Origin: Metapseudomonas otitidis
Lineage (GTDB): Bacteria > Pseudomonadota > Gammaproteobacteria > Pseudomonadales > Pseudomonadaceae
Assembly: GCF_900111835.1 (NCBI RefSeq)
Contig: NZ_FOJP01000011.1
Span: 168,180-232,179 of the forward strand
Length of the DNA: 64,000 nucleotides
Direction: 5' to 3'
Each line of letters starts with the position of its first letter. The first letter of the stretch is position 1. The notes under the pieces are model-generated. The model ran no database searches and had not been told where the DNA came from. It worked only from the letters and a program-made list of their open reading frames with translations. The position numbers were made by a program, and so were the translations under genes. Of the stretch, positions 16,403-32,700 are shown piece by piece.

Positions 16403-16431
16403 TTTTCAGGGGGTGGCCCATTCCCTATATT
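16403..16431 (+). promoter_or_regulatory. candidate sigma-70 promoter of the PLP gamma-lyase gene
   Basis: TTTTCA (16403-16408, 4 of 6 to the -35 consensus), a 17-base spacer and TATATT (16426-16431, 5 of 6 to the -10 consensus) lie 46 bases before the ATG at 16478 and after the preceding terminator. The local AT-richness stands out in this GC-rich window. Confidence 0.6.
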
Positions 16432-16477
16432 CGCCGGCACACAGCACTGCTGCTGACCTTGTCTAGCCGGATCGGGA

Positions 16478-17761
16478 ATGGAAATGAGCAAGAACCTAGA
16501 AAGCCCCCGCGACGCCATCGCGGGTATCGGAACCCAGGTGGTCTGGGCGGGCGAGCAGGATGGCCACCCCTACAACGCCACCCAGACACCCATCGTCTTC
16601 AGCGCCGCCTATGGCTACCAGGACGTCGACCACTGGTACGACGTCGCCCTGGGCAAGCGCGAAGGCTACATCTACAGCCGCATGGGCAACCCGACGGTGA
16701 CCACCCTGGAGGCCAAGCTCTGCGAACTGGAGCAGGCGGAATCGGCGGTCGCCTTCAGCAGCGGCATGGCCGCCATCAGCGCGGTGCTGCACACCTTCCT
16801 CTGCCAGGGCAAGCGCGTGGTCTCGACCCGCGACAGCTACGGCGGCACCAACAAGATCTTCGAAGAGTTCCTCCCGCGCATGGGCGTGGACGTGGTGCTC
16901 TGCGACACCCTCGACACCCAGGCCATCGAGGCGGAGATCGCCCGTGGCTGCGACCTGCTGTACCTGGAGACGCCCACCAACCCGACCCTGAAGGTGCTGG
17001 ACATCCGCCGCCTGGTGGCAGCGGCCAAGCGCGTCGGCGCCCTGGTGGTGGCCGACAACACCTTCGCCACGCCGCTCAACCAGAACCCGCTGGCCCTGGG
17101 GGTGGACGTGGTGGTGCACAGCGCCACCAAGTTCCTCTCCGGCCACGGTGACGCCCTGGGTGGCATCGCCTGCGGCGCCGAGCACCTGATGGCCAGCGTC
17201 CGGCACTACCGCGAGATCAACGGTGCCGCGCTGGATGCCTTCTCCGCCTTCCTGATCATCCGCGGCATCAAGACCCTGGCCCTGCGCCTGCGCCAGCAGC
17301 AGCGCAGTGCCCAGGCCCTGGCCGAGTACCTGCTCACCGAGCCCCTGGTGGAAGCGGTGAACTACCCGGGCCTGCCCAGCCACCCCGGGCACGCCATCGC
17401 CCGTGGGCAGATGCGCGGCTTCGGCGCCATCGTCAGCTTCGTCCTGCGGGGCGGCATGGACACCGTGACCCGCCTGCTGCCACGCCTGCGCTACGCCCAC
17501 CGGGCCGGCAACCTCGGCGCGGTGGAGACCATCTACGGTCCCGCGCGCACCACCAGCCACGTGGAGAACACCCTGGAGGAGCGCCTGGCCCTGGGCATCT
17601 CCGAAGGGCTGGTACGGGTTTCCGTCGGCATCGAGGAGACCGAGGACCTGCTGGCCGACCTGCAGCACGCATTCGCCGGCGTTCGCGCCGAACTCGCCGC
17701 CGTGGCACCTCGCCAGGGCGAACCTTCACTGACCGGATGTCGCACCGAGGTGGAACTCTGA
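16478..17761 (+). CDS. PLP-dependent cystathionine gamma-synthase/gamma-lyase family enzyme (candidate canavanine- or homoserine-releasing lyase)
   Basis: A 427-residue Cys/Met-metabolism PLP enzyme. The Schiff-base lysine is Lys218 in HSATKFLSGHGDALGG; the phosphate-binding block SSGMAAISAVL and YLETPTNPT are standard. The family covers cystathionine gamma-synthase, gamma-lyases and sulfhydrylases, which motifs alone do not separate. Context points to catabolism: the same strand carries an amino-acid permease, a homoserine dehydrogenase, an aldehyde dehydrogenase and a Rid protein, as in the canavanine-gamma-lyase loci I recall from Pseudomonas. Methionine gamma-lyase is the main alternative. 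The start may be the ATG at 16478 or the one two codons later. The gene has its own promoter-like sequence. Confidence 0.88.
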   Translation: MEMSKNLESPRDAIAGIGTQVVWAGEQDGHPYNATQTPIVFSAAYGYQDVDHWYDVALGKREGYIYSRMGNPTVTTLEAKLCELEQAESAVAFSSGMAAISAVLHTFLCQGKRVVSTRDSYGGTNKIFEEFLPRMGVDVVLCDTLDTQAIEAEIARGCDLLYLETPTNPTLKVLDIRRLVAAAKRVGALVVADNTFATPLNQNPLALGVDVVVHSATKFLSGHGDALGGIACGAEHLMASVRHYREINGAALDAFSAFLIIRGIKTLALRLRQQQRSAQALAEYLLTEPLVEAVNYPGLPSHPGHAIARGQMRGFGAIVSFVLRGGMDTVTRLLPRLRYAHRAGNLGAVETIYGPARTTSHVENTLEERLALGISEGLVRVSVGIEETEDLLADLQHAFAGVRAELAAVAPRQGEPSLTGCRTEVEL

Positions 17762-17905
17762 CATTCGCCCCACTCCTGGCCGGAGAGTCAGCGAGTCCTT
17801 CATGAAAAGGAATAACAAGAAAAACCTGACGGCAAACAGTTTGGTTCTGCCTTGAAGTTGTTCGCAGAAACGTCCTTGTCCGCACACTTTCATGAGATTC
17901 AACTT

Positions 17906-19345
17906 ATGTCCCTACATACAACAAACGACAAAGCGACATCGGGGCCTGATTTCAAACAGGACATGCAGACCCGCCACATCGTCATGCTGGCGCTGGGCGG
18001 GGTGATCGGCACCGGCCTGTTCCTCACCTCCGGCTACACGGTCAACCAGGCGGGGCCGCTGGGCGCGGTCATCGCCTACGTCATCGGCGCGGTGATGGTG
18101 TACATGGTGATGATGTGCCTGGGCGAGCTGGCCGTGCACATGCCCGAGACCGGCTCGTTCAGCAGCTACGCCTCCCGCTACCTCGGAGCGGGCACCGGCT
18201 ACACCGTGGCCTGGCTCTACTGGCTGACCTGGGCGGTGGCCATCGGCTCGGAGTTCACCGCCGCCGGCATCCTCATGGTGCGCTGGTTCCCGGACACCCC
18301 GGTGTGGATCTGGAGCGCGCTGTTCGCCCTGACCGTCTTCATCAGCAACGTGGTGTCGGTGCGGCTGTTCGCCGAGACCGAGTTCTGGCTGTCACTGGTC
18401 AAGGTGCTGGCCGTGCTGGCCTTCCTGGTGGTCGGTGCCGGCGCCATCTTCGGTGTCTTCGAGACCCGCCACGTGCAGAGCGCGGGCCTGGCCAACTTCA
18501 CCCGCGAAGGGCTGTTCCCCACCGGTTTCTGGTCCATCGCCATGACCCTGCTGGCGGTCGCGTTCGCCTTCTCCGGTACCGAGCTGATCGGCATAGCCGC
18601 GGGCGAGACCCGCGACCCCAAGCGCAACGTACCGAAGGCGATCCGCACCACCGTGGTTCGCCTGGCGCTGTTCTTCGTCGGCACCATCTTCGTCCTGGCG
18701 ACGTTGCTGCCCCGGGAGCAGGCCGGCCTGGTGGAGAGCCCCTTCGTCACGGTGTTCGAGTCCATCGGCATTCCCTACTCGGCGGACATCATGAACTTCG
18801 TGATCATCAGCGCGCTGCTCTCGGCCGCCAACTCCGGGCTCTACGCCGCCTCGCGGATGCTCTGGACCCTCAGCGACCAGGGCCACATGCCCAAGCGCTT
18901 CGCCACCCTCAGCCGCATGGGCACGCCGTTCAACGCCATCGTCGTGAGCATGGCCGGCAGCATCGCCTCGCTGCTCAGCAGCGTGTTCGCGCCGGACACG
19001 GTCTACCTCGCCCTGGTGTCCATCTCCGGCCTGGCCGTGGTGGTGGTGTGGATGAGCATCGCCGCCAGCCAGATGGCCTTCCGGCGCCACTACCTGGCCA
19101 ACGGCGGCCGGCTGGAGGACCTGGGCTTCCGCGTGCGTGGCTACCCCTGGGTGCCGCTGGGCGCGTTGGTGTGCTGTGCCCTGGCGTGCATCGGGATTGC
19201 CTTTGATCCGGCCCAGCGAGTTGCGCTCTACTTCGGCGTGCCGTTCATTGCCTGGTGCTACTTCGTCTACTGGGTGACCTGCAAGCTGCGCGAACGGCGC
19301 CAGGCTTCACCCGTGGCCCCGGCAAGGGTACCGGGGGCGGCCTGA
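17906..19345 (+). CDS. APC-superfamily amino-acid permease
   Basis: A 479-residue, 12-TM transporter of the amino-acid permease type (AAT family). The first helix has [17 protein letters not shown], the substrate-backbone-binding GxGxG-like unwound segment; the conserved [15 protein letters not shown] follows at TM6, and [15 protein letters not shown] is the TM8-9 signature. The ATG at 17906 is preferred to one 18 codons upstream because the family starts about 20 residues before TM1. It is flanked by the PLP enzyme and the regulator/threonine-synthase-like pair, so it probably imports the amino acid that they degrade. The upstream 144 bases are distinctly AT-richer than the genes. Confidence 0.9.
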
Positions 19346-19383
19346 ACCACGCCTTCCCATTGCGCCGTCCCGAGGTCCCGACC

Positions 19384-20274
19384 ATGCACCCGAAAGCCCT
19401 GCCTCCCCTGAACTGGCTGCGCGCCTTCGAAGTCTCGGCGCGGTACCTCAACTTCACCCACGCGGCGGAGGAGCTGCACCTCACCCAGGGGGCGGTCAGC
19501 CAGCAGATCCGGCAGCTGGAAAGCCACCTCGGGGTGGCGCTGTTCAAGCGCCTGCCCCGGGGCCTCGGGCTGACCGAGGAAGGCCAGTCCTACCTGCCGG
19601 TGGTGCAGGACGCCATCACCCGGCTGGCGGTGGGCACCAACGAGATCTTCGGCCAGCACAAGCGCCGGCCGATCAAGGTCCGTGGCAGCCTGTCGTTCCT
19701 GCACTTCTGGCTGGCACCCCGGCTGGCGGACTTCCGCCGCGCCCACCCGCAGCTGGACATCCGCTACATCAGCAACCTCTGGGTGAAGGAGCTGGACGGC
19801 GAGGACGACGTGGAGATCCGCTGGGGCCACGGCCAATGGCCGGGGCTGGTCTCCCAGCGGCTGACCTGGGACACGCTGTTCCCGGTGTGCGCGCCGGAGC
19901 TGCTGGCCCAGGGCCCGCTGCGCGAGCCGCGCGACGTGGCCCGCCACCCGCTGCTGCACGTGCTGGGCTACGAGGAGGGCTGGGGCTACTGGTTGCAGCG
20001 CGCCGGCGCCGATGACGTCGACTACGCCACCGGCCCGCAGTTCGACACCCTGGTATCGACCCTGCGCCTGGCCGAGCTGGGGCAGGGCATCGCCCTGGCG
20101 CGCTCCTCCATGGTCGAGGACCTGCTGCGCGAAGGGCGCCTGGTGGAGCTGTTCGACTGCCGCATCGAGGCCAGCGAATCCTTCTACCTGGTCAGCGGTT
20201 CCGGCACCGACCTGCATCCGGATGCCCAGGCCTTCGCCACCTGGCTGGTGGCCCAGGCCCACCGTTCCACCTGA
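19384..20274 (+). CDS. LysR-family regulator (GcvA-like)
   Basis: A 296-residue LTTR. The N-terminal HTH (NWLRAFEVSARYLNFTHAA followed by LHLTQGAVSQQIRQLE) is of the GcvA/AmpR subgroup, followed by a periplasmic-binding-like effector domain. It lies between the permease and the threonine-synthase-like gene on the same strand, with only 13 bases to the latter, so it is likely to be co-transcribed with and to control this amino-acid locus. Confidence 0.9.
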   Translation: MHPKALPPLNWLRAFEVSARYLNFTHAAEELHLTQGAVSQQIRQLESHLGVALFKRLPRGLGLTEEGQSYLPVVQDAITRLAVGTNEIFGQHKRRPIKVRGSLSFLHFWLAPRLADFRRAHPQLDIRYISNLWVKELDGEDDVEIRWGHGQWPGLVSQRLTWDTLFPVCAPELLAQGPLREPRDVARHPLLHVLGYEEGWGYWLQRAGADDVDYATGPQFDTLVSTLRLAELGQGIALARSSMVEDLLREGRLVELFDCRIEASESFYLVSGSGTDLHPDAQAFATWLVAQAHRST

Positions 20275-20287
20275 GCTTGGAGTGAAC

Positions 20288-21658
20288 ATGCATTACGTGA
20301 GTACCCGCAGCGCCTCGGTGCGCGCGGATTTCCGCAGCGTCGTGCTGTCGGGGCTGGCCCCCGACGGCGGCCTGTTCGTGCCGGCCAGCCTGCCGGTGTT
20401 CAGCGTGCAGGAGATCGCCACCTGGTCCTGGCTGCCCTTCGAGGAGCTGGCCTGGCGGGTGATCGCCCCCTTCGTCGGCCAGGCCATCGCCGAGGACGAC
20501 CTGCGCGGGCTGCTCAAGGCCTGCTACCAGGGTTTCGGCCACCGCGCCATCGCCCCCTTGCGCCAGGTGGACCGCAACGAATGGGTGCTCGAGCTGTTCC
20601 ATGGACCCACCCGCTCCTCGAAGGATTTCGCCGCCCAGCTGCACGCGCGCCTGGCCCGTCACTTCCTCGAACGGGAAGGGCGTGAGGCCCTGGTGCTCGG
20701 CGCCACCAACGGCGACACCGGCCTGGCGGCGGTTGCCGCCTTCGGCGAGTGCCCGTGCAGCCGGGTGGTGATGCTCTATCCCGAGCAGGGCGTGCCAGGC
20801 GATCGCCTGGTGGCGTTGCAGGCGGCCGAGTCCGCACGGGTTCAGGGCATCGCCGTGGCGGGCAGTTTCGACGACTGCCAGCGCCTGGTGTCGCGGCTCT
20901 TCAGCCAATGGCCCAGCGAGCACCTGGCCATCGGCTTCAACTCCTCCAACTGGGTCGGCGTGCTGGCGCAGATCGTCTTCTACTTCCACGCTGCGCTGCA
21001 GTTGGGCGGCGGCCAGCGTCCCATCGGCTTCAGCATTCCTGCCGCCAGCTTCGCCGAGGTCTATGCCGGTTACGTGGCGCAGAAGATGGGGCTGCCGGTG
21101 AACCAGATCATCGTCTCCACCAACCGCAACGACGCCTTGCACCAGTTCATCCACCGCAACCGCTATGGCACCTGCGAGGCCCGCTCGACGCTGTCGCCGG
21201 CCATGGATTTCTCGGTGTTCTCCAACGTCGAACGGCTGGTCTGGGAACTCTACGACCATGACGACCAGGCCGTGCGCCGGTTGATGGAGCACCTGGAGGC
21301 GAGCGGCGAACTGAGCATCGCCAACGCGCCCTGGCTGCAGGCGCGGATGCTGATCGACTCCTACGCCGTGGACGACGCCCAGACCGAGGCGGAGATCGTC
21401 GCGCTGTTCCGCGACACCGGCCTGTGCATTGACCCGCACACCGCCACCGGCGTCCTGGCCGCGCGGCTTTACCGGCGCAGCGTGGTGACCCCGATGGTCA
21501 CCCTCGGCCAGATCGCGCCGGAGAAGTCCGCCGCGCTGCTGGCCCGCCTGGGCGCCTGGCCGGCACCGCTGCCGGCCCGGGCGGCGCCGCGCGCCCACGC
21601 CCGCTGCCATGCCCGCACGGACCTGGAGGGCCTGCGCCAGGCCCTGGCCGGGGCCTGA
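20288..21658 (+). CDS. divergent threonine-synthase-like PLP enzyme
   Basis: A 456-residue fold-type II PLP enzyme that aligns along its length with bacterial ThrC (HYVSTR start, IAPLRQ, ELFHGPT, DPHTATGVLAAR, TPMVTLGQIAPEK near the end). The PLP lysine is kept: Lys112 in HGPTRSSKDFAAQL. Other catalytic-loop positions differ from housekeeping ThrC: GATSGDTG has become GATNGDTG, the segment after it has GVPGDRLVALQ in place of the usual VSxxQ pattern, and the phosphate-binding PTGNFGD reads PAASFAE. It is therefore probably a paralogue with another substrate, or altered function. It lies 13 bases after the LysR gene and 13 before the Lrp gene. Confidence 0.85.
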   Translation: MHYVSTRSASVRADFRSVVLSGLAPDGGLFVPASLPVFSVQEIATWSWLPFEELAWRVIAPFVGQAIAEDDLRGLLKACYQGFGHRAIAPLRQVDRNEWVLELFHGPTRSSKDFAAQLHARLARHFLEREGREALVLGATNGDTGLAAVAAFGECPCSRVVMLYPEQGVPGDRLVALQAAESARVQGIAVAGSFDDCQRLVSRLFSQWPSEHLAIGFNSSNWVGVLAQIVFYFHAALQLGGGQRPIGFSIPAASFAEVYAGYVAQKMGLPVNQIIVSTNRNDALHQFIHRNRYGTCEARSTLSPAMDFSVFSNVERLVWELYDHDDQAVRRLMEHLEASGELSIANAPWLQARMLIDSYAVDDAQTEAEIVALFRDTGLCIDPHTATGVLAARLYRRSVVTPMVTLGQIAPEKSAALLARLGAWPAPLPARAAPRAHARCHARTDLEGLRQALAGA

Positions 21659-21671
21659 GGACGCGACCGCG

Positions 21672-22109
21672 ATGAAGCGCATCCTCGACCCGCTGGACGA
21701 GCGGATACTGGCCGAGCTGACCGCCAACGCGCGGATCGCCCACGCCGAGCTGGGCACCAAGGTGAACCTGTCGCGCAACGCGGTGCGCCAGCGCATCGAG
21801 CGCCTGGAGCGCGACGGGGTCATCCAGGGCTACACCCTCAAGGTGGGCGAGGGGCGGCGTGCAGCGGCACTGATCAGCGCAGTGATCTTCGTCTACCGCC
21901 ACGACCGCATGCGCGGTGAAGAGGTGCTGCGGGACCTGCGGGCTATTCCCGAGGTGACCCAGTGCGACGTGATGAGTGGCGAGTTCGACCTGATGCTGCG
22001 GGTCGAGGCCGCCACGCCGGATCGCGTCCACGGCGTCTGGCGGCAGATCGCCGGGATTCCTGGCGTGGCCAATACCGTCACCTCGTTCGTGCTTTCCGCC
22101 GTCATCTGA
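21672..22109 (+). CDS. Lrp/AsnC-family transcriptional regulator
   Basis: A 145-residue regulator with an N-terminal HTH (LDERILAELTANARIAHAEL and LSRNAVRQRIERLERDGVI) and a C-terminal RAM/AsnC ligand domain (CDVMSGEFDLMLRVE). Such proteins sense amino acids; several control adjacent amino-acid catabolic genes (for example mdeR or bkdR in Pseudomonas). The ATG at 21672 is chosen because it starts immediately before the HTH. A strong terminator follows, then the homoserine dehydrogenase gene. Confidence 0.93.
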   Translation: MKRILDPLDERILAELTANARIAHAELGTKVNLSRNAVRQRIERLERDGVIQGYTLKVGEGRRAAALISAVIFVYRHDRMRGEEVLRDLRAIPEVTQCDVMSGEFDLMLRVEAATPDRVHGVWRQIAGIPGVANTVTSFVLSAVI

Positions 22110-22132
22110 CCCCCTCCTCGCTCCACGACCCG

Positions 22133-22165
22133 GGCCCCGGCACGCCACACGTGCCGGGGCCTTTT
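22133..22165 (+). terminator. strong rho-independent terminator after the Lrp gene
   Basis: A perfect 11-bp stem (22133-22143 with 22151-22161), 7-base loop and TTTT tail. It separates the LysR/ThrC-like/Lrp unit from the dehydrogenase pair. Confidence 0.88.
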
Positions 22166-22237
22166 CGTCTGCGCCCGGTGCACGCCGCCGCAGCCCCAGG
22201 GGGCGGGCCGTGGGGCCGCTCCGGCACTGGGCAGAAC

Positions 22238-22262
22238 GCCCAATGAATACAGCAGATTGGCC
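22238..22262 (+). promoter_or_regulatory. inverted repeat upstream of the homoserine dehydrogenase gene, possible operator
   Basis: GCCCAAT (22238-22244) and ATTGGCC (22256-22262) form an imperfect inverted repeat with half-site centres about 18 bases apart, 68 bases before the ATG at 22330. The spacing would suit a dimeric regulator such as the adjacent Lrp protein; this is inference only. Confidence 0.3.
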
Positions 22263-22329
22263 TATTCAACTGCCACAGGCCGGCTCTTAGGCTGACCCCA
22301 TCGAGCAAACGCCGGATTGGAGGCACCTG

Positions 22330-23373
22330 ATGACCGAATACAAGATCGCCCTCGTGGGCTTTGGTGGAGTGAACCGTGGCCTGGCCCGCCTGGTGGCCGA
22401 GCGCAACGGGGCCTGGCAGCGCGAGCTGGGCTTCAGCCTGAAAATCGTCGGGGTCACCGACCTGTTCCTCGGCTCCCTCATCGACCGCAACGGCCTCGAC
22501 GCCGCCCAGCTGGCCAACCTGCCCGTCACCCAGGGGGCGCTGGCCAGCCTGCCGGGCGGCACCGCCGAGGCCTTCAACGAGGCCGTGATCAAGCAGTCCG
22601 GCGCGGACCTGATCGCCGAGGCCACCTTCACCAACCCGGTGGACGGCGAACCCGCCACCACCTTCTGCCGCTGGGCCCTGGAGAGCGGCAAGCACGTGGT
22701 CACCACCAACAAGGGGCCGATTGCCCTGCATGGCGCCGAGCTCAAGGCCCTGGCCAAGCGCAACGGCGTGGCCTTCGAGTACGAAGGCGCGGTGATGAGC
22801 GGCACCCCGGTGATCCGCATGGCGCGACAGACCCTGGCGGGAGCCGGCATGGTCGGCTTCGAGGGCATCCTCAACGGCACCTCCAACTACGTGCTGACCC
22901 GCATGGAGGAAGGCCTCGGCTTCGACGAGGCGGTGGCCAAGGCCCAGGCGCTGGGTTACGCCGAAGCCGACCCGACGGCGGACGTGGAAGGCCACGACGT
23001 GCGCCTGAAGGTGGTGATCCTCGCCAACGAGCTGCTGGATGCCCACCTCTCGGTGAGCGACGTCGCCTGCAGCGGCATCAGCGCCCTGACCCCGGCGGAC
23101 CTGACCCAGGCCCGGGAGGAGGGTGCTCGCTGGAAACTCATCGGCTCTGCCCAGCGCCAGGCCGATGGCTCGGTGGCTGCGCGGGTGGAGGCCCGCAAGC
23201 TGGACCTCGGCCACCCGCTGGCCGGGATCAGCGGCGCTACCAACGCGGTGGCCTTCAACACCGAACTGCTGGGCGCGGTCACCGTGTCCGGACCGGGTGC
23301 CGGCCGTATCGAGACCGCCTTCGCGCTGCTCTCCGACATCGTCGCCCTCCATGCCACCCACGGCCGCCCGTAA
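22330..23373 (+). CDS. short (ACT-less) homoserine dehydrogenase
   Basis: A 347-residue NAD(P)-dependent dehydrogenase. Rossmann motif GFGGVNRG at residue 10; the catalytic-domain signature [15 protein letters not shown] and [16 protein letters not shown] is that of homoserine dehydrogenases. The biosynthetic Pseudomonas Hom is about 430 residues with a C-terminal ACT domain for threonine feedback; that domain is absent here. Loss of feedback, a catabolic-looking neighbourhood and an immediately following aldehyde dehydrogenase suggest it oxidises homoserine to aspartate semialdehyde rather than making homoserine. It begins a two-gene unit, with 16 bases to the next gene. Confidence 0.92.
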
Positions 23374-23389
23374 GCCCAGGAGCCTGCCC

Positions 23390-24808
23390 ATGACCGTTTC
23401 GTCCCTGGCCTTGGCCACCGCTGTCGAGCCCTCCGGCATCGACGTACACAACCCCTTCGACGGCAGCCTCGTCGGCAGCGTGCCCTGCCTGGGCGCCGCC
23501 GATGTGCCGGCCCTGCTGGCCAGTGCCCGCGAGGGTGTACGCCAGTGCGCGGCGCTGCCCCGGCACCGTCGCGCCGCCATCCTGGAGGAGGCCGCCCGCC
23601 GGGTGGAGCAGGAGGCCGCCGTCTTCGCCGCGCTGATCGTCGCCGAGGCCGGCAAGACCCTGCGCCAGGCCCAGAAGGAGGTGAAGCGCTGCATCAACAC
23701 CCTCAAGCTTTCCGCCGAAGAGGCGCGGCGCAATGCCGGCGAGGTGGTGCCCTTCGAATCCTACGAGGGCTCCGAGTCCCGCCAGGGCTGGTTCACCCGT
23801 GAACCCCTGGGGCTGATCGTCGCCATCACCCCCTACAACGACCCGCTCAACCTGGTGGCGCACAAGCTCGGGCCGGCCATCGCCGGGGGTAATGGCGTGC
23901 TGCTCAAGCCGTCCGAACTGGCTCCGCTGTCGGCCTGCAAGCTGGTGGATTGCCTGCGCCAAGCGGGCCTGCCGGAGGCCGTGGTGACCATCGCCACCGG
24001 CGGCGCGGAACTGGGCAAGGCGCTGACCTCGGCCCGGGAGGTGCGGATGATTTCCTTCACCGGTGGCTTCGTCACCGGCGAGCACATCGCCCGCAACGCC
24101 GGCCTCAAGAAGCTGGCGATGGACCTGGGCGGCAACGCACCGGTCCTGGTGCTGGACGACTGCGAGCTGGAAGCCACCGTCGAATCCTGTGTCTCCGGTG
24201 CGTTCTGGGCCGCCGGGCAGAACTGCATCGGCACCCAGCGCCTGCTGGTGCAGGCCTCGATCTACGCCGAGTTCCGCGAGCGCTTCGTCGCCCGTACCCG
24301 CGCGCTGGTGGTGGGTGACCCGGCCCGTGCCGAGAGCGACATGGGCCCGATGATCACCGAGCAGGCCGCCCGCGCCACCGAACAGGTGGTGGCCGAGGCC
24401 CTCGCCGAGGGAGCGACCCTGCTGTGCGGCCAACGCCGCGAGGGTGCGCTGTATCACCCCACGGTGCTGGAAGGGGTGGACCATCGCAGCCGCCTGTGGC
24501 GCCAGGAGGTGTTCGCGCCCGTGGTGGTGCTGGAGCCTTTCGAGACCCTGGAGGAGGCCGTGGCCCTGGCCAACGAACCGGAGTACAGCCTGCACGCCGG
24601 CATCTTCACCCGCGACCTGCGTCGCGCCCTCTGGGCGGCCCGGCGCATCGAGGCCGGCGGCGTGATGATCAACGACTCCTCCGACTACCGCTTCGACGCC
24701 ATGCCCTTCGGCGGCTTCAAGTACGGCAGCCTGGGCCGCGAGGGCGTGCGTTTCGCCTACGAGGACATGACGCAGCCCAAGGTGGTCTGCATCAACGACC
24801 TCAACTGA
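23390..24808 (+). CDS. NAD(P)-dependent aldehyde dehydrogenase, probably semialdehyde-oxidising
   Basis: A 472-residue ALDH-superfamily enzyme. The catalytic cysteine is Cys279 in [11 protein letters not shown], and [18 protein letters not shown] marks the cofactor-binding region. The general-base position 34 residues before the cysteine, usually Glu in ELGG, is Asp245 (MDLGGNAP). Its place directly after the homoserine dehydrogenase suggests oxidation of aspartate semialdehyde to aspartate. It is not the usual acylating Asd enzyme, which has a different fold. Tandem hairpins follow the stop. Confidence 0.9.
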
Positions 24809-24818
24809 ACCGTCAGGT

Positions 24819-24886
24819 GACGACCCTTTGCGGTCGTCCTTTGCACCGGACGACGCCGCTCGCCGCGCCGCCCGGTGCGTTTTTTT
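24819..24886 (+). terminator. tandem terminator hairpins after the aldehyde dehydrogenase gene
   Basis: A 7-bp stem (24819-24825 with 24832-24838) is followed by a second hairpin with arms 24843-24849 and 24872-24878 and a run of seven T (24880-24886). The second is a good rho-independent terminator. Confidence 0.8.
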
Positions 24887-24889
24887 GGA

Positions 24890-25270
24890 TATGTCTGCGT
24901 AGCTGTTGTGAACCTAAGGAAGGCATTGCGCACCGAACGTGATGCGCACATCGATGAAGATTTTGGCGAAGACGTTGGAGCGGCCAAACGCCCCTTTCAG
25001 GAGGCCGAGCGGCATCGTCGTGTAAGGGGTTGAGCGACATGGATGTCGCGAGAGCGCTGCCGGGCCAGGGATGGCCCGTCAGCGCGGGCCCCGGAACGAT
25101 GATGGCGCGAGGGTAGTCTGGCGAAGCCAGACCCGTATGCAGGGGCAAGCGCTTTTGGTTCCTTTTCTGGCGACTGAGAAAAGGGACTCGCCTGGCAAGG
25201 CGAAACAGAAACCATCAGCAAAACTCGGCAATCGGCTTGGCAACAGACCTTCTAGCAACACTTAATGCAG
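24890..25270. repeat. hairpin-rich Pseudomonas-type intergenic repeat element, degenerate
   Basis: This gene-free stretch carries three compact perfect hairpins: 25034-25049 (GCGACAT/ATGTCGC), 25061-25078 (CGGGCCA/TGGCCCG) and 25116-25132 (GTCTGGC/GCCAGAC), then ATGCAGGGGCAAGCGCTTTT and a purine-rich tail ending in GCAAGGCGAAACAGAA. I recognise this order of hairpins and the GGGGCAAG...GGCGAAAC wording from repeated intergenic blocks of other Pseudomonas genomes, but cannot count copies here. Small open frames inside it (for example 25071-25265) look non-genuine. The rest of the 24809-25294 gap holds the terminators and the Rid promoter. Confidence 0.55.
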
Positions 25271-25294
25271 ACAGAGTTTTTTAGGGAGCCTTGC

Positions 25295-25648
25295 ATGATC
25301 ACGCGATTCCACGAGGGCCCGCGCATGGCCCAGGCCGTTGCCTACGGGCCGTTCTTCGAGACGGCGGGCATCTGTGCCGACGACCCGACGCTGGACATCC
25401 GCGCCCAGGCGCGCCAGGCCCTGGCGCACATCGACGCTTTGCTGGCGGAGGCCGGCCTCGGTCGCCGGGACCTGGTGCGGGTGCAGGCCTGGCTGGCCGA
25501 CTACCGCGACTTCGACGCCTTCAACGAGGTCTATGACGCCTGGCTGGCGGCAGGTCCGAAGCCGGTCCGTGCCTGTGTGGGCAGTGCCCTGGGCGGCTAC
25601 GCGGTGGAGGTCCAGGTGCTGGCCTATCGACAGTCGCCCGGCGCCTAG
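25295..25648 (+). CDS. RidA/YjgF-family protein
   Basis: A 117-residue Rid-superfamily protein. The arginine used for imine deamination is kept (KPVRACVGSALGGYAVEVQVLAY, where the R aligns with Arg105 of RidA). Archetypal RidA hydrolyses reactive enamines and imines, including those released by PLP lyases, which fits its position downstream of the PLP enzymes. The ATG at 25295 follows AGGGAGCC; the in-frame ATG 10 codons upstream is less likely because the Rid fold begins near the second. It might instead belong with the downstream GlxA-type regulator. Confidence 0.88.
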   Translation: MITRFHEGPRMAQAVAYGPFFETAGICADDPTLDIRAQARQALAHIDALLAEAGLGRRDLVRVQAWLADYRDFDAFNEVYDAWLAAGPKPVRACVGSALGGYAVEVQVLAYRQSPGA

Positions 25649-27929: not shown

Positions 27930-28360
27930 GGTGTTTCTCCTTGTGGCGGTGGCCCGCAGCGGGGCGATTGGGGCGCCGTATCACCCCCGGGTCGTTGGCG
28001 GGTGGGTACGGGCGCTGCCGCCACTATCGGTGAGCGCACAGGGCGTCGGCTTGCATCGATGTGCTCGATTGGGAGGGCGGGGGATCGACGGCGGCGGACG
28101 CGGGGAGGGCAGGTGTGCCCTGAGGCGGTTCCGGCGTTTTCAGGAAGCGTGCGGGGTGCTCTGAAAGACCCGTTCCAGAGGGGTTGGATGGTTCGGGTGG
28201 CACGTCATTGAAGCAGGTGTGCGACACCCTGGCTTGTACATTTGTTCTTATTTCCGTGTCGCGTGGTTAACGCTTGAGATGGGAATTTCTTTCATCTAGG
28301 TTGAAAAAGTTCCGCTGAAAAGCGGCCCTGTTTCCGCCTGTTCGACGACGAGTTGCCACC
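27930..28360. other. 431-base divergent intergenic region
   Basis: No gene is supported. It holds divergent promoters for ycaC and the signalling operon at 28361. An inverted repeat with 7-bp arms, GCGACAC (28221-28227) and GTGTCGC (28256-28262), encloses an AT-rich TTGTACATTTGTTCTTATTT stretch, the most promoter-like part, and could be an operator for the downstream operon. Nothing else stands out. Confidence 0.4.
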
Positions 28361-29338
28361 ATGATCCGCCTGGGTGACGCCTGGATTTCGCTGGAGCGAA
28401 GAGAAGCCTTCCTGAACGGTGCCCCGGTGCGCCTGGGCAGCCGCGCCTTCGATGTGCTGGAAGCCCTGCTCGCCGCCCCCAACCGCCTGGTGACCAAGGC
28501 CGAGTTGCTGCAGGCGGCGTGGCCCGACCTGGTGGTGGAGGAGAACAACCTGCAGGTGCAGGTCTCGGCCCTTCGCAAGCACCTGGGCCTGGATGCGCGC
28601 CTGCTGGAAACGGTGCCGCGCCGGGGCTATCGCCTCAACCTGCAGGCAACCGTGGTGGCGGCCGCCGAACCGCCTGTCCGACCGGTGCCCGCTGCGCCGG
28701 TCGGGCGCGCCGACGTGCATGTCATCGACGACGAGCCGGCCGTGCGCACGGCGCTGGTCCGCCAGCTGCGCTCGGCGGGTATCGAAGCCACGGCCTATGC
28801 CTCGGCGCCCGAGTTCCTCGCCCGCTGCCCCTGTGATCGCCCCGGCTGCCTGCTGCTGGACGTGCGCCTGCGCGAGGGCAGCGGCTTCGACCTGCAGGAC
28901 GAACTGGCCCGGCGCGGCGTGCCGTTGTCGGTGGTGTTCATGAGCGGCTTCGGCACCATCGACATGTCGGTCAAGGCCATGAAGGCCGGCGCCGAGGGCT
29001 TCCTCACCAAACCGGTGGACGAGGCCCAGTTGCTGGCGGCGGTGGGCGAGGCCATGGGCCGGGCCTGCATCCTCCACCAGCAGCGCCATGCCCGGCAGGC
29101 GGTGCAGGCGCGCTATGCCAGCCTCACCCCACGGGAGCGCGACGTGTTCCGACTGCTGCTGGAGGGCCGCCAGAACCGCGACATCGCCCAGCAGCTCGGC
29201 CTGCAGGACGTGACGGTGAAGATGCATAAAAAGCACGTCATGACAAAACTCGGCGCGAGCAACCTGATACACCTGCTCGTGGCGGGCCGCACGCTGGGGA
29301 TGCTGCCCCAGTTCGACCCGGTCGCCGAACCGGCCTGA
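28361..29338 (+). CDS. response regulator with winged-helix, receiver and LuxR-type HTH domains
   Basis: A 325-residue protein with three recognisable domains. Residues 1-97 are an OmpR/CadC-type winged helix (RLGSRAFDVLEALL, VSALRKHLGL and VETVPRRGYRL-like ending). Residues about 115-230 are a receiver with DDEP acidic pocket, phospho-acceptor Asp167 (LLLDVRL) and a KP switch lysine (FLTKPVD). Residues about 258-315 are a LuxR/FixJ HTH (LTPRERDVFRLLLEG, VTVKMHKKHVMTKLG). FixJ/TodT-like regulators normally have only the last two; a second DNA-binding domain in front is unusual. It heads an operon with a lone receiver and a giant sensor kinase. Confidence 0.9.
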   Translation: MIRLGDAWISLERREAFLNGAPVRLGSRAFDVLEALLAAPNRLVTKAELLQAAWPDLVVEENNLQVQVSALRKHLGLDARLLETVPRRGYRLNLQATVVAAAEPPVRPVPAAPVGRADVHVIDDEPAVRTALVRQLRSAGIEATAYASAPEFLARCPCDRPGCLLLDVRLREGSGFDLQDELARRGVPLSVVFMSGFGTIDMSVKAMKAGAEGFLTKPVDEAQLLAAVGEAMGRACILHQQRHARQAVQARYASLTPRERDVFRLLLEGRQNRDIAQQLGLQDVTVKMHKKHVMTKLGASNLIHLLVAGRTLGMLPQFDPVAEPA

Positions 29339-29384
29339 CCCGGCATGCACGCCGCCATCCCCTGTCCTCTGCCCAGGGCTAGCC

Positions 29385-29750
29385 ATGAAGGTCGTGTGCG
29401 TCGTCGACGACGAACCCAAGGTCCGCAAGAGCCTCGACAACCTGTTGCGCTCGGTCGGCCTGCGCGCCGTGTGCTTCGAGTCCGGCGAGGCCTTCCTCGC
29501 CTCACGCTGGCCGGAGCAGGCCGATGCGCTGCTGCTCGATGTGCGCATGCCTGGCCTGAAGGGCGCTGAGGTGCAGGCGCTGCTGGCCGAGCGCCGCTGC
29601 CCGCTGCCGGTCATCTGCATGTCCGCCGAGGCGGGCGCGCAGGGCGCCGAGTCGGCCCTTGCCCGCGGCGCCCATGCCTTTCTCGCCAAGCCCTTCAGTG
29701 CCGAGGCGTTGCTGGCCGCGCTGGCGGGCCTGCCCGGGTGGGCTGCGTGA
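29385..29750 (+). CDS. stand-alone receiver-domain protein
   Basis: A 121-residue single-domain response regulator (CheY-like): VVDDEPKVRKSL acidic pocket, phospho-acceptor Asp52 (LLLDVRMPG) and AFLAKPFS with the conserved lysine. It has no output domain. It sits 46 bases after the fused regulator and its 3' end overlaps the sensor kinase start, so it is probably an additional phospho-acceptor in that system, either a branch, a sink or a relay step. Confidence 0.92.
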   Translation: MKVVCVVDDEPKVRKSLDNLLRSVGLRAVCFESGEAFLASRWPEQADALLLDVRMPGLKGAEVQALLAERRCPLPVICMSAEAGAQGAESALARGAHAFLAKPFSAEALLAALAGLPGWAA

Positions 29751-32700
29751 GCCCGCCGCCACTGCTGCATGACTTGCCCGACGCTCTGGCCGCCTGCTTC
29801 GACGAGCACTGGCTGGCCCGTGTCGATTGGCAGCCCCTGGACCGCAACGGCGAGCTGAGCCGCTGGCGGGTGCGCGACAGCCGTGCCGGCCGCCAGTGGC
29901 TGGTGGTGCGTGCAGGCCCCCAGGCCGCCCATTGGGAACTGGCCGGGCTGGATCATGAATACGCCCTGGGTTCGCGGCTGGACACGGCCTGGGCGTTGCT
30001 GCCGGTGGCGCGCCTGGGTGGCGCCGACGGCACCCTGCTGGTGCTGGACGACGACGCTGGCATGCCGCTCTCCCTCACCTGCCGCGAGCCCCTGGCGGTG
30101 GAGCCCTTCCTGCGCCTTGCCCTGGCCGCCGCCCAGGCGCTGGGCAAGGTCCATCGCAGCGGCCTGGCGCACCGCAACCTGTGCCCGGACAACCTGTTCC
30201 TGATGCCCGACGGGCGCATCCGCCTCACCGGCTTCGGCAAGGCTGGCGCCCTGGAAAACGCCGCTCCCGGGAGCCCGGCCCTCAACGATCGGCAACTGGC
30301 CTACCTGCCGCCGGAGCGCGACGGCACGCCCGAGGCCGACCTCTATGCCCTGGGGGTGTGCTTCTTCCAATGGCTCACCGGGCGCTACCCCTTCGTCGCG
30401 GGCGACCCGCTGGAGTGGCAGCACCGCCATGCAGCCGTCGCCGCGCCCGCACCTTCGCAGTTGCGGTCCGGCGTGCCCGCCGCAGTGGATGCGCTGCTGG
30501 CCGCCATGCTGGCCAAGCAGGCCGACGCCCGGCCGCGCCAGGCGATCCAGGTGGAGAGCGAGCTGCGCCGTTGCCTGGAGGCCTGGCGCGAAGGCGCCGC
30601 GCTGCACCGGACGGCAGGCGGTGCTGCGTTGCTGGTGGCCCGTGAGGCCGAACTGGCGACCCTGGCCGCCGCCCGCGAACGCCTGCGCAAAGGGCAGGGC
30701 GGGGCCGTGCTGGTGGCGGGCGAGGCCGGCATCGGCAAGACCTCGCTGATGCGCCGCTTCCGCCGCGAGGAGGATGACGCCAGCGTGCTGTTCGCCAGCA
30801 CCAAATGCGAACTGTCCCGCCGCCGCGCGCCCTACGAGGCCCTGGCCGGGCTGTTCGGCGGCCTGTGCGAGCGCCTGCTGGCCGAAACACCGGCCCAGGC
30901 CCAGCGCTGGCGTGAACACCTGCAGGGCGTGGTGGGCACCCATGCCCAGCGGGTGGTGCGCCTCATTCCGCCGCTGGCGCCCTTGCTGGGGGATGGCCGT
31001 TTGCCGGCCGAGGCATTGCCGCCCAGCGAAGCGCGGCGTTACCTGCACGGCGTGCTGCAACGGCTGCTGGGCGCCCTGGCCCGGCGGGAGCATCCCTTGC
31101 TGCTGTTCGTCGACGACCTGCAGTGGATCGACGAGGAGAGCCGCGACTTCCTCTGCGAGCTGGCCCCTTCGGCCTTCGACCACTGCCTGCTGGTGCTCGC
31201 CTACCGGCCTGCCGAATGCCGGGCGGGCAGCCTTGCCGCGCCGTTGTTGGCCGCATGCGAGGGGCTTGGCGAGCGCTGTGTGCGCATCGACCTGGCGCCC
31301 CTGGGCGCGCAGGGCATCGGCGACCTGCTGGGCGCCGGCCTTAGCCTGCAGCCCGAGGCCCATGCCCGCCTGGCCGGGCACCTGGAGCAACAGGGGCACG
31401 GCAACCCGCTGTACCTCACCCAGTTCGCCGCCCTGCTGCGCGAGGCCGGCGATACGCCGCTGATGGCCGACGGCCCGGTGGTGGACGTGGCCAGCCTGCT
31501 GGAGGTTCGCCTGCGGCGCCTGCCGGAGAGCACCCGGGAATTGCTGGGTGCGCTGGCCCTGCTGGGCAACCGCACGCCGCTGGACGAACTGGCCCAGGCC
31601 AGCGGCCTGCCCGCCGATACCGTGGCCCATCACCTGCACCCCGCGCGAGAGGCCGGCCTGCTGGAGGAGCAGGCGGAGGGCCTGGCCTTCGCCCACGACG
31701 CCTTGCTGGAGTCGGTGCGCGGGCAACTGCCGGCGCAGCGCCAGGCCGGCATGCACGCCGGCTTCGCCCGCCAGTTGCTGGCCGGGCTGGCCACGCAGGC
31801 CCCCGCTGCGGCGGTGTTCCGGGTGGCCGCCCAGGTGCTGCGGGTGACCCCGGCCACGCTGGATGCCGAGGACCGGCGCCGCTTCGTCGACCTGCTGCTG
31901 CGTGCCGCCTGCCTGGCCGCCGACGCCGTCGCTCCCGGTCCGTTGCTGGACTACCTGCACCAGGCCGGGGCCCTGCTGCAGGGGCTGGACGACCCGGCCC
32001 GTGCCCGAGAGGTGGAGCTGTTGCACGTCCACGGGCTCATACTCGGCGCCGACTACCTGGCGGCCGATACCCGCCTGCAAGCGCGGCTGGCCGACACGGC
32101 GGATGCCCTGGAACGCATCGCCCTGCAGCGCCTGCGGGTGGAGATCCACTGCCTGCGGGGTGACTACCCCGGTGCCCTTGCGTGTGTCGCCGCCGCCCTG
32201 GCCGAGCGTGGCGTGGTGTTCCCCTGTGCGCCCACGCCGGAGCAGGCCGCCGAAGCCTGGCAGGCCCTGCTGGCCGAACTGGACGGCCGTCCGCCGGCGT
32301 ACTTTGCCGAGCTGCCCGAGGCGCAGGATGCCGAGGCGCTGGCGGTGATGGAGCTGCTGGCCGCGCTGGTGGTGCCCGGGTCGTTCATCCAGCCGAACCT
32401 GATGCTGCTGGCCACCGCGCGCATCGCCCACATGGCCCTGCAGCACGGGCTCAGCGCAGCGGCCGTGCAGGCCCTGGCGTGGCTCGGCGTGGCAGCGGCC
32501 GAACGCTTCGAATGCCATGCCGAAGGCTTTGCCTTCAGTGCCGTGGCGCGGCGACTGGCGGAGCAGCCGGCCTATGCCGCCAGTCGCGTCTCGGCCCTGG
32601 TGGCTCTGGACCAGGTGAGCGTCTGGACCCAGTCGCTGCCCTTCGCCCTGGAATGCGCCGAGCAGGCCTACCGCGCCAGCCTGGCCCAGGGCTCGCCCAG

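Follow-up and report, generated by a model that had tools for sequence, protein, structure and literature searches.

A canavanine utilisation operon has reportedly been described in Pseudomonas canavaninivorans (by Hauth et al. in 2022). The canavanine operons of this species and of rhizobia, which contain the canavanine γ-lyase CanGL and CtdA, place a γ-lyase of the PF01053 family beside a homoserine-to-aspartate module. The γ-lyase releases homoserine from canavanine, and its gene adjoins that for the canavanyl-tRNA editor CtdA, as outlined in PMC10018355 (Hauth et al. 2023). In Escherichia coli, the mmuPM genes (b0260 and b0261) allow S-methylmethionine to be used as a methyl donor to homocysteine, as summarized in PMC3228920. 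A rhizobial homoserine catabolism cluster (Vanderlinde et al. 2014, as referred to in PMC10228743) relies on a homoserine-oxidizing homoserine dehydrogenase (HSD). Here we describe a locus comparable to these systems in a 64,000-nucleotide window (the whole stretch of DNA analysed) of Metapseudomonas otitidis (GCF_900111835.1, contig NZ_FOJP01000011.1, positions 168,180–232,179). Eight genes on the plus strand of this window (16478–25648) probably form a homoserine-releasing catabolic island, for which S-methylmethionine is tentatively put forward as the best single substrate.

Like the canavanine operons, the island places a PF01053 enzyme beside a homoserine-to-aspartate module, but it differs from them in having a lyase of another family (34–35% identity), an MmuP-like permease and a LysR-family gene, and in lacking CtdA. 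Its permease shares 55% identity with E. coli MmuP across 470 amino acids, and in 8 of 80 related loci a methyltransferase gene of the same Pfam family as that of mmuPM adjoins the lyase gene. Unlike in the mmuPM system, however, cleavage of S-methylmethionine rather than methyl transfer is proposed, and no methyltransferase gene is present in the window. The same net reaction as the one proposed here is suggested by the name of a plant activity, ‘methylmethionine hydrolase’, which appears in the abbreviation list of PMC13103439 and is likened by name only. The lyase has its fold and cofactor family in common with the methionine γ-lyase MdeA, and methionine γ-lyases are its best sequence matches among solved structures. 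It is 37.6% identical to an MdeA-like protein of Pseudomonas putida (L122, named by its YGC motif), the cysteine of which is replaced by glycine in the island enzyme. Lyases of the same NCBIfam family are also found in ectoine-degradation operons, where ectoine hydrolase, deacetylase or eutB/eutC genes are the neighbours instead of an MmuP-like permease gene.

An earlier reading of the window from its letters alone (the sequence-only reading) had listed eight gene families on one strand, and a Pfam/NCBIfam scan identified all eight at the same positions. The first gene (16478–17761) encodes a 427-amino-acid Cys/Met-type pyridoxal 5′-phosphate (PLP) enzyme, the candidate γ-lyase (PF01053, 427 bits; NCBIfam NF006097/PRK08249). 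It is followed by the genes for an MmuP-like APC permease (17906–19345, in a frame that opens at 17852; PF00324, 423 bits), a LysR-family regulator (19384–20274, frame opening at 19255; PF00126 and PF03466), a threonine-synthase (ThrC)-like PLP enzyme with an altered active site (20288–21658, frame opening at 20012; PF14821 and PF00291), an Lrp/AsnC-family regulator (21672–22109, frame opening at 21609; PF01037 and the helix-turn-helix domain PF13412), a 347-amino-acid HSD (22330–23373), an aldehyde dehydrogenase (ALDH; 23390–24808, frame opening at 23123; PF00171, 482 bits) and a Rid-family imine deaminase (25265–25648; PF01042). The likely starts at 17906, 19384, 20288, 21672 and 23390 are those of the first methionine fitting the respective family. 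Only PF00742 and PF03447 were found in the HSD, so that the absence of the ACT feedback domain noted in the sequence-only reading was borne out. This protein passes the curated model NF004912 (472 bits against a cut-off of 373), and its TNKGP and DVEGHD..LK stretches, which contain the conserved lysine and aspartate, are unbroken, as is the GQNC stretch of the ALDH with its cysteine. A biosynthetic-type HSD gene (a 439-amino-acid frame) and a thrC gene lie side by side on another contig of the same genome, so that the island HSD and ThrC-like enzyme represent additional copies.

In the proposed pathway, the MmuP-like permease would import S-methylmethionine, a plant-made amino acid with a cationic sulfonium group, and the PRK08249-type PLP γ-lyase would expel dimethyl sulfide, presumably a good leaving group for γ-elimination, from its C4. 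The addition of water to the enzyme-bound vinylglycine intermediate would then yield homoserine, the net lyase step being S-methylmethionine + H2O → dimethyl sulfide + homoserine. Homoserine would be oxidized to aspartate semialdehyde by the ACT-less HSD, and aspartate semialdehyde to aspartate by the ALDH. The Rid protein may hydrolyse 2-aminocrotonate that leaks from the γ-elimination, the ThrC-like enzyme may handle a side product such as vinylglycine, and the LysR and Lrp proteins would be regulators of the island. We infer every one of these reactions, above all the substrate, from sequence comparisons. The homoserine half is well supported as a prediction: homoserine is assigned as the product because relatives of the island Lrp, ALDH and HSD genes occur in CtdA loci and the published lyase next to CtdA releases homoserine. 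Furthermore, an extra ACT-less HSD beside a biosynthetic-type copy fits oxidative use, and a group of homoserine-oxidizing HSDs, likened here by description and not by sequence, is outlined in PMC10228743.

A species-genome scan queried with the lyase yielded 113 confirmed relatives, and the loci of the best 80 of these 113 were analysed, with gene presence scored at identity thresholds of 45–60%. They comprise 69 Pseudomonas-type loci (including L010, from the laboratory strain P. putida NBRC 14671, and L045, from a metagenome-assembled genome labelled Paucimonas) and 11 Marinomonas loci; because they were sampled via the lyase, its presence in them carries no information. LysR was found in all 80 loci. 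The MmuP-like permease, LysR, ThrC-like and Lrp genes were each present in all 69 Pseudomonas-type loci, and those for HSD, ALDH and Rid were present in 64, 63 and 11 of them, respectively. The conserved linkage of the lyase gene to the two dehydrogenase genes, for which the sequence-only reading had proposed a synteny search, was thus found. Of the five loci in which HSD is missing, four are cut off by a contig end no more than 5.2 kb from the lyase; the fifth, L041, contains the first five island genes, but neither HSD nor ALDH was seen in the 10 kb that follow the lyase. When all open reading frames (ORFs) of at least 120 amino acids were clustered, no non-island gene was common to most of the 80 loci. 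The island is therefore a conserved unit and not a chance grouping. In L015, the HSD gene is displaced downstream by ∼4.7 kb relative to its place in most loci. Two of the loci counted, L027 and L029, stem from one 1.42-Mb contig of Pseudomonas frederiksbergensis, near the opposite ends of which the two lyase copies reside, owing to either duplication or an assembly artefact.

The lyase itself has a patchy distribution: seven of 390 genomes of the order matched at an E-value of 1e-120, one of which (G572) is an ectoine-type member. The wider searches for distant lyases, which matched 3 of 398 genomes in the phylum, these 7 of 390 in the order and 4 of 369 in the class (the last with a lyase of Priestia as the query), provided few new contexts; that of L151 is ectoine-type, and the neighbours of L152, L153 and L154 were uninformative. 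In G993 and G1066, the matched stretches were reported with internal stops, yet open frames of 400 and 396 amino acids were found.

By curated models, the lyase is a member of NF006097/PRK08249 (‘cystathionine gamma-synthase family protein’), for which it scored 720 bits, with the cut-off at 600; this model defines no function. The other 24 models shown, of the 55 that it matched, all scored below their cut-offs. Scores were below cut-off for MdeA (TIGR01328; 376.4 against 549.7 bits), MetB (TIGR02080; 328 against 504.55 bits) and O-succinylhomoserine sulfhydrylase. The cysteine of the YGC motif is a functional feature of MdeA; the window lyase and its aligned PRK08249 relatives contain YGG at this position, whereas the P. 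putida MdeA-like protein contains YGC. Because YGG also occurs in the aligned MetB and MetY-type proteins, it is not diagnostic of the PRK08249 family. Identity with methionine γ-lyase or MetB was rejected on the basis of the curated scores and the motif, while the closest relative of the PRK08249 family as a whole is left unsettled by the tree. This tree contains 39 rows, five duplicate rows having been dropped beforehand, and several rows are on long branches with unsure placement, including that of E. coli MetB, which stands separately. The PRK08249 proteins form one clade (support 100/100), within which the Pseudomonas/Marinomonas subclade containing the window lyase is nested (100/100), on a long stem (0.6), among proteins including three ectoine-linked ones. 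The CtdA-linked lyases form a separate clade.

The groupings compared in the approximately unbiased (AU) test were defined once the tree was in view, although the canavanine question itself had been set beforehand by the sequence-only reading. A grouping of the window subclade and the CtdA-linked lyases was rejected (P = 1.8e-8), whereas neither the union of the whole PRK08249 family with the CtdA-linked lyases (P = 0.26) nor that with the MdeA-like protein (P = 0.15) was rejected. An assignment of the window lyase to the CtdA-linked type is thus not supported. The phylogenetic comparison with MdeA and MetB proposed in the same reading gave a clade of its own, consistent with the sub-threshold scores against both models, and a sister relation to MdeA is compatible with the AU test.

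The relationship of the island to canavanine loci was further examined by searching for CtdA, for which a small B3/4-domain protein served as marker. No CtdA gene was found in any of the 80 island loci. All 18 genomes of the window's genus contain one B3/4 match each, located in a PheT-sized frame of 795–863 amino acids, and a further B3/4 match in a frame shorter than 300 amino acids was found in 10 of 46 chosen genomes behind the island loci. The stretches around eight of these ten small matches were examined (L107–L114). Six of the proteins are close kin (L107–L111 and L113; 70–84% identical to that of L110, or that protein itself), and two are distant (L112 and L114; 32–34%). A related homoserine module is present in three of the six close-CtdA loci, L107, L110 and L111, and no such module was seen in L108, L109 and L113. 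L107 (9625–19487) contains genes for CtdA, a dapA-like protein, a ThrC-like protein, Lrp, HSD, ALDH and an AnsP-like permease, and its 19.9 kb contain nothing that matches the window lyase. L110 and L111 carry a PF01053 lyase only 34–35% identical to that of the window. L111 resembles the island in bringing together Lrp, HSD, ALDH, Rid, APC, lyase, CtdA and ThrC-like genes, although its Rid-family gene is just under the curated cut-off and its permease is AnsP-like. If the lyases of L110 and L111 are CanGL, as their CtdA-type neighbours suggest, these two loci would be canavanine operons.

Between L110/L111 and the island, identities are 59–62% for Lrp, 63–65% for ALDH and 44–59% for the ThrC-like protein; the HSD of L111 is 67% identical to that of the window, and no HSD match was seen in L110. 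With L107 included, the ranges are 59–62% for Lrp, 63–69% for ALDH and 66–68% for HSD (L107 and L111), and the Lrp, HSD, ALDH and ThrC-like proteins of the island are altogether 41–69% identical to those encoded beside CtdA in other pseudomonads. The closest model for the permeases scanned in two CtdA loci is the L-asparagine permease, and these proteins scored 215 and 222 bits on the S-methylmethionine permease model. One genome, G051, possesses both operons, with different lyases. As judged from these sequences, the modules of the island and the CtdA loci are related, and the lyase and permease appear to have been exchanged.

The ThrC-like enzyme had been given no place in the sequence-only scheme. 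The PLP lysine is kept in all 69 island copies, none of which retains the NSxNWxR arginine (G, S or N stands in its place); GNFG reads ASFA in 49 of these copies, and the other 20 fit neither pattern. The biosynthetic-type copy of the window genome (L163), on the other hand, keeps the PLP lysine, NSxNWxR and GNFG. On the threonine synthase model TIGR00260, the island copy scored 165 bits, against a cut-off of 167.1. Given the changed motifs and the separate ThrC in the genome, a true biosynthetic threonine synthase is unlikely. The enzyme may act on a changed substrate, perhaps one without phosphate, and we would guess vinylglycine, a suggestion that rests on known chemistry. In the ThrC-like proteins of the CtdA loci L107 (13380–14795) and L110 (8385–9779), the PLP lysine is replaced by glutamine (HGPAGVYQD and HGPASVYQD, respectively). 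These two proteins are probably not working PLP enzymes and are perhaps sensors or degenerate copies.

The permease and an occasional neighbour of the lyase point to S-methylmethionine. The best model for the island permease is that of the S-methylmethionine permease (NF008484, 637 bits; the next model, 391), and the same model was best for all four island permease copies scanned (636–656 bits). When E. coli MmuP was used as the query in a one-direction search, its best match in the genome was the island permease (56%, 571 bits), followed by a protein with 48% identity (489 bits). A gene of the homocysteine S-methyltransferase family (PF02574) was identified by tblastn next to the lyase gene in 8 of the 80 loci: six Pseudomonas loci, in the same direction as the lyase, and two Marinomonas spartinae loci, in divergent orientation. 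The Pseudomonas proteins are 53.5–55.5% identical to the Marinomonas one. In the ORF clustering, which caught six of the eight, this gene formed one of five non-island clusters spanning both genera, and it is the only sulfur-metabolism enzyme recognized among the five. According to a published survey, mmuM-type genes tend to be located with transporter genes (PMC3228920).

Several observations weigh against S-methylmethionine. All of the permease scores, including the 637 bits of the island copy, are below the NF008484 cut-off of 716, and a second permease of the window genome, located away from the island (L159: 3351–4778), is 48% identical to MmuP and reached 533 bits on the same model, so that permease kinship alone is not specific. 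The PF02574 neighbour, present in only eight loci as the result of perhaps two events, is absent from the window; the Marinomonas protein shares just 27% identity with E. coli MmuM, and the genome's own relative of the methyltransferase family (L158: 2639–6503) follows a choline/betaine-type ABC transporter. Among the eight window genes, only those for the lyase and LysR were found in the 11 Marinomonas loci, the MmuP-like permease, ThrC-like, Lrp, HSD and ALDH genes all being missing. A polar amino-acid ABC transporter adjoins the lyase in eight of these loci, a methyltransferase gene is present in two, and L059 has neither; in Marinomonas, only the two methyltransferase genes point to S-methylmethionine. 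Finally, PRK08249 lyases 52–59% identical to that of the window adjoin genes for the degradation of ectoine or hydroxyectoine. They were found on the Priestia plasmid pBMV_1 (L115: 7980–9179; 764 bits), on the Pluralibacter plasmid pFB2.3 (L116: 7980–9158; 651 bits, also above the cut-off) and in a Pseudomonadales genome (L151: 8850–10034). In Priestia, the lyase is accompanied by eutB and by genes for a cyclodeaminase, an HSD, an ALDH and an M24 protein with 50% identity to DoeA; Pluralibacter has doeA and doeB as neighbours, and L151 has doeA-like (51%) and doeB-like (58%) genes. With such relatives, the family kinship of the lyase is as compatible with a nitrogen leaving group as with a sulfonium.

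For the lyases in the ectoine operons, the natural substrate candidate is diaminobutyrate, and the main rival to S-methylmethionine follows from this: the island lyase would expel ammonia from C4 of 2,4-diaminobutyrate, or act on a derivative, to yield homoserine and bypass diaminobutyrate aminotransferase, with the permease importing the cationic amino acid. The Priestia operon, which also encodes an HSD (45% identical to that of the window) and an ALDH (49%), and the arrangement of the ectoine-linked lineages as a grade around the window subclade fit this idea. However, relatives of the doeA, doeB and eutB queries were absent from the 80 island loci at an E-value of 1e-8 (eutC-query matches in four island loci were only 25–28% identical), the permease is MmuP-like, a methyltransferase-family neighbour recurs, and the window subclade is separated by its long stem. 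In addition, the bypass is weakened in L151 by a class-III aminotransferase gene ∼2.4 kb beyond the ectoine genes, and diaminobutyrate is on balance unlikely, though it has to be taken as a serious rival. Some other γ-substituted amino acid, for example methionine, homocysteine, cystathionine, an O-acyl homoserine or a plant compound of unknown identity, converted to homoserine or 2-oxobutyrate, is somewhat less improbable than that, although still rather doubtful. Members of PF01053 share such γ-substituted amino-acid chemistries, the family is annotated only as a cystathionine γ-synthase family, and the MdeA sister relation withstood the AU test; nevertheless, the MdeA-type cysteine is missing, the methionine γ-lyase, cystathionine γ-synthase and O-succinylhomoserine sulfhydrylase models are below cut-off, and a 2-oxobutyrate product would need neither HSD nor ALDH.

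Canavanine, which the sequence-only reading had favoured and which the lyase would cleave to homoserine and hydroxyguanidine, no longer stands as the leading substrate and appears very improbable. PF01053 and a related downstream module are common to the island and the CtdA loci, in agreement with the part of that claim that was upheld, namely a γ-lyase island leading through aspartate semialdehyde to aspartate. The CtdA-linked lyases, however, belong to another family by identity, tree and AU test, the 80 island loci lack CtdA, the permease is of another type and the two operons with their different lyases coexist in G051. It is also quite improbable, if slightly less so, that the island serves mainly for free homoserine from plant exudates, with the lyase as a minor extra feed. 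The L107 module, which stands without a window-type lyase, is consistent with such a use, whereas the MmuP-like permease in every Pseudomonas-type locus argues against it.

Two antisense ORFs within the island, 19267–20289 (−) and 20192–21823 (−), have no Pfam or NCBIfam match. Elsewhere in the window, two overlapping antisense frames of ∼1,800 amino acids each are present at 28292–33700 (−) and 29738–35158 (+), and the minus-strand frame has no Pfam match.

Both bacteria and plants have been reported, on biochemical grounds, to split S-methylmethionine into dimethyl sulfide and homoserine. S-methylmethionine is made by most plants, as noted in PMC9135737, and reference titles in PMC11306096 present it as an intermediate of dimethylsulfoniopropionate (DMSP) synthesis in Spartina. 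Among the papers listed in searches of an open-licence library, which leaves out most subscription journals, no title or abstract opening assigns a bacterial gene to the conversion of S-methylmethionine to dimethyl sulfide. Taken as a whole, the locus may, with a likelihood falling somewhat short of even, represent a bacterial route from S-methylmethionine to dimethyl sulfide and homoserine. This route would be a plant-linked, non-DMSP source of dimethyl sulfide in pseudomonads and marine Marinomonas (including M. spartinae), with a lyase drawn from a lineage whose present members occur in ectoine operons and joined to a homoserine module akin to that of the CtdA loci. If this is true, a 427-amino-acid protein, a permease and a defined operon would provide a direct handle on a source of dimethyl sulfide in soils, rhizospheres and salt marshes. 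Whatever the substrate, a homoserine-to-aspartate module seems from this comparison to have been reused with different γ-lyases and permeases, and such reuse would help to predict the catabolism of γ-substituted amino acids from gene order.

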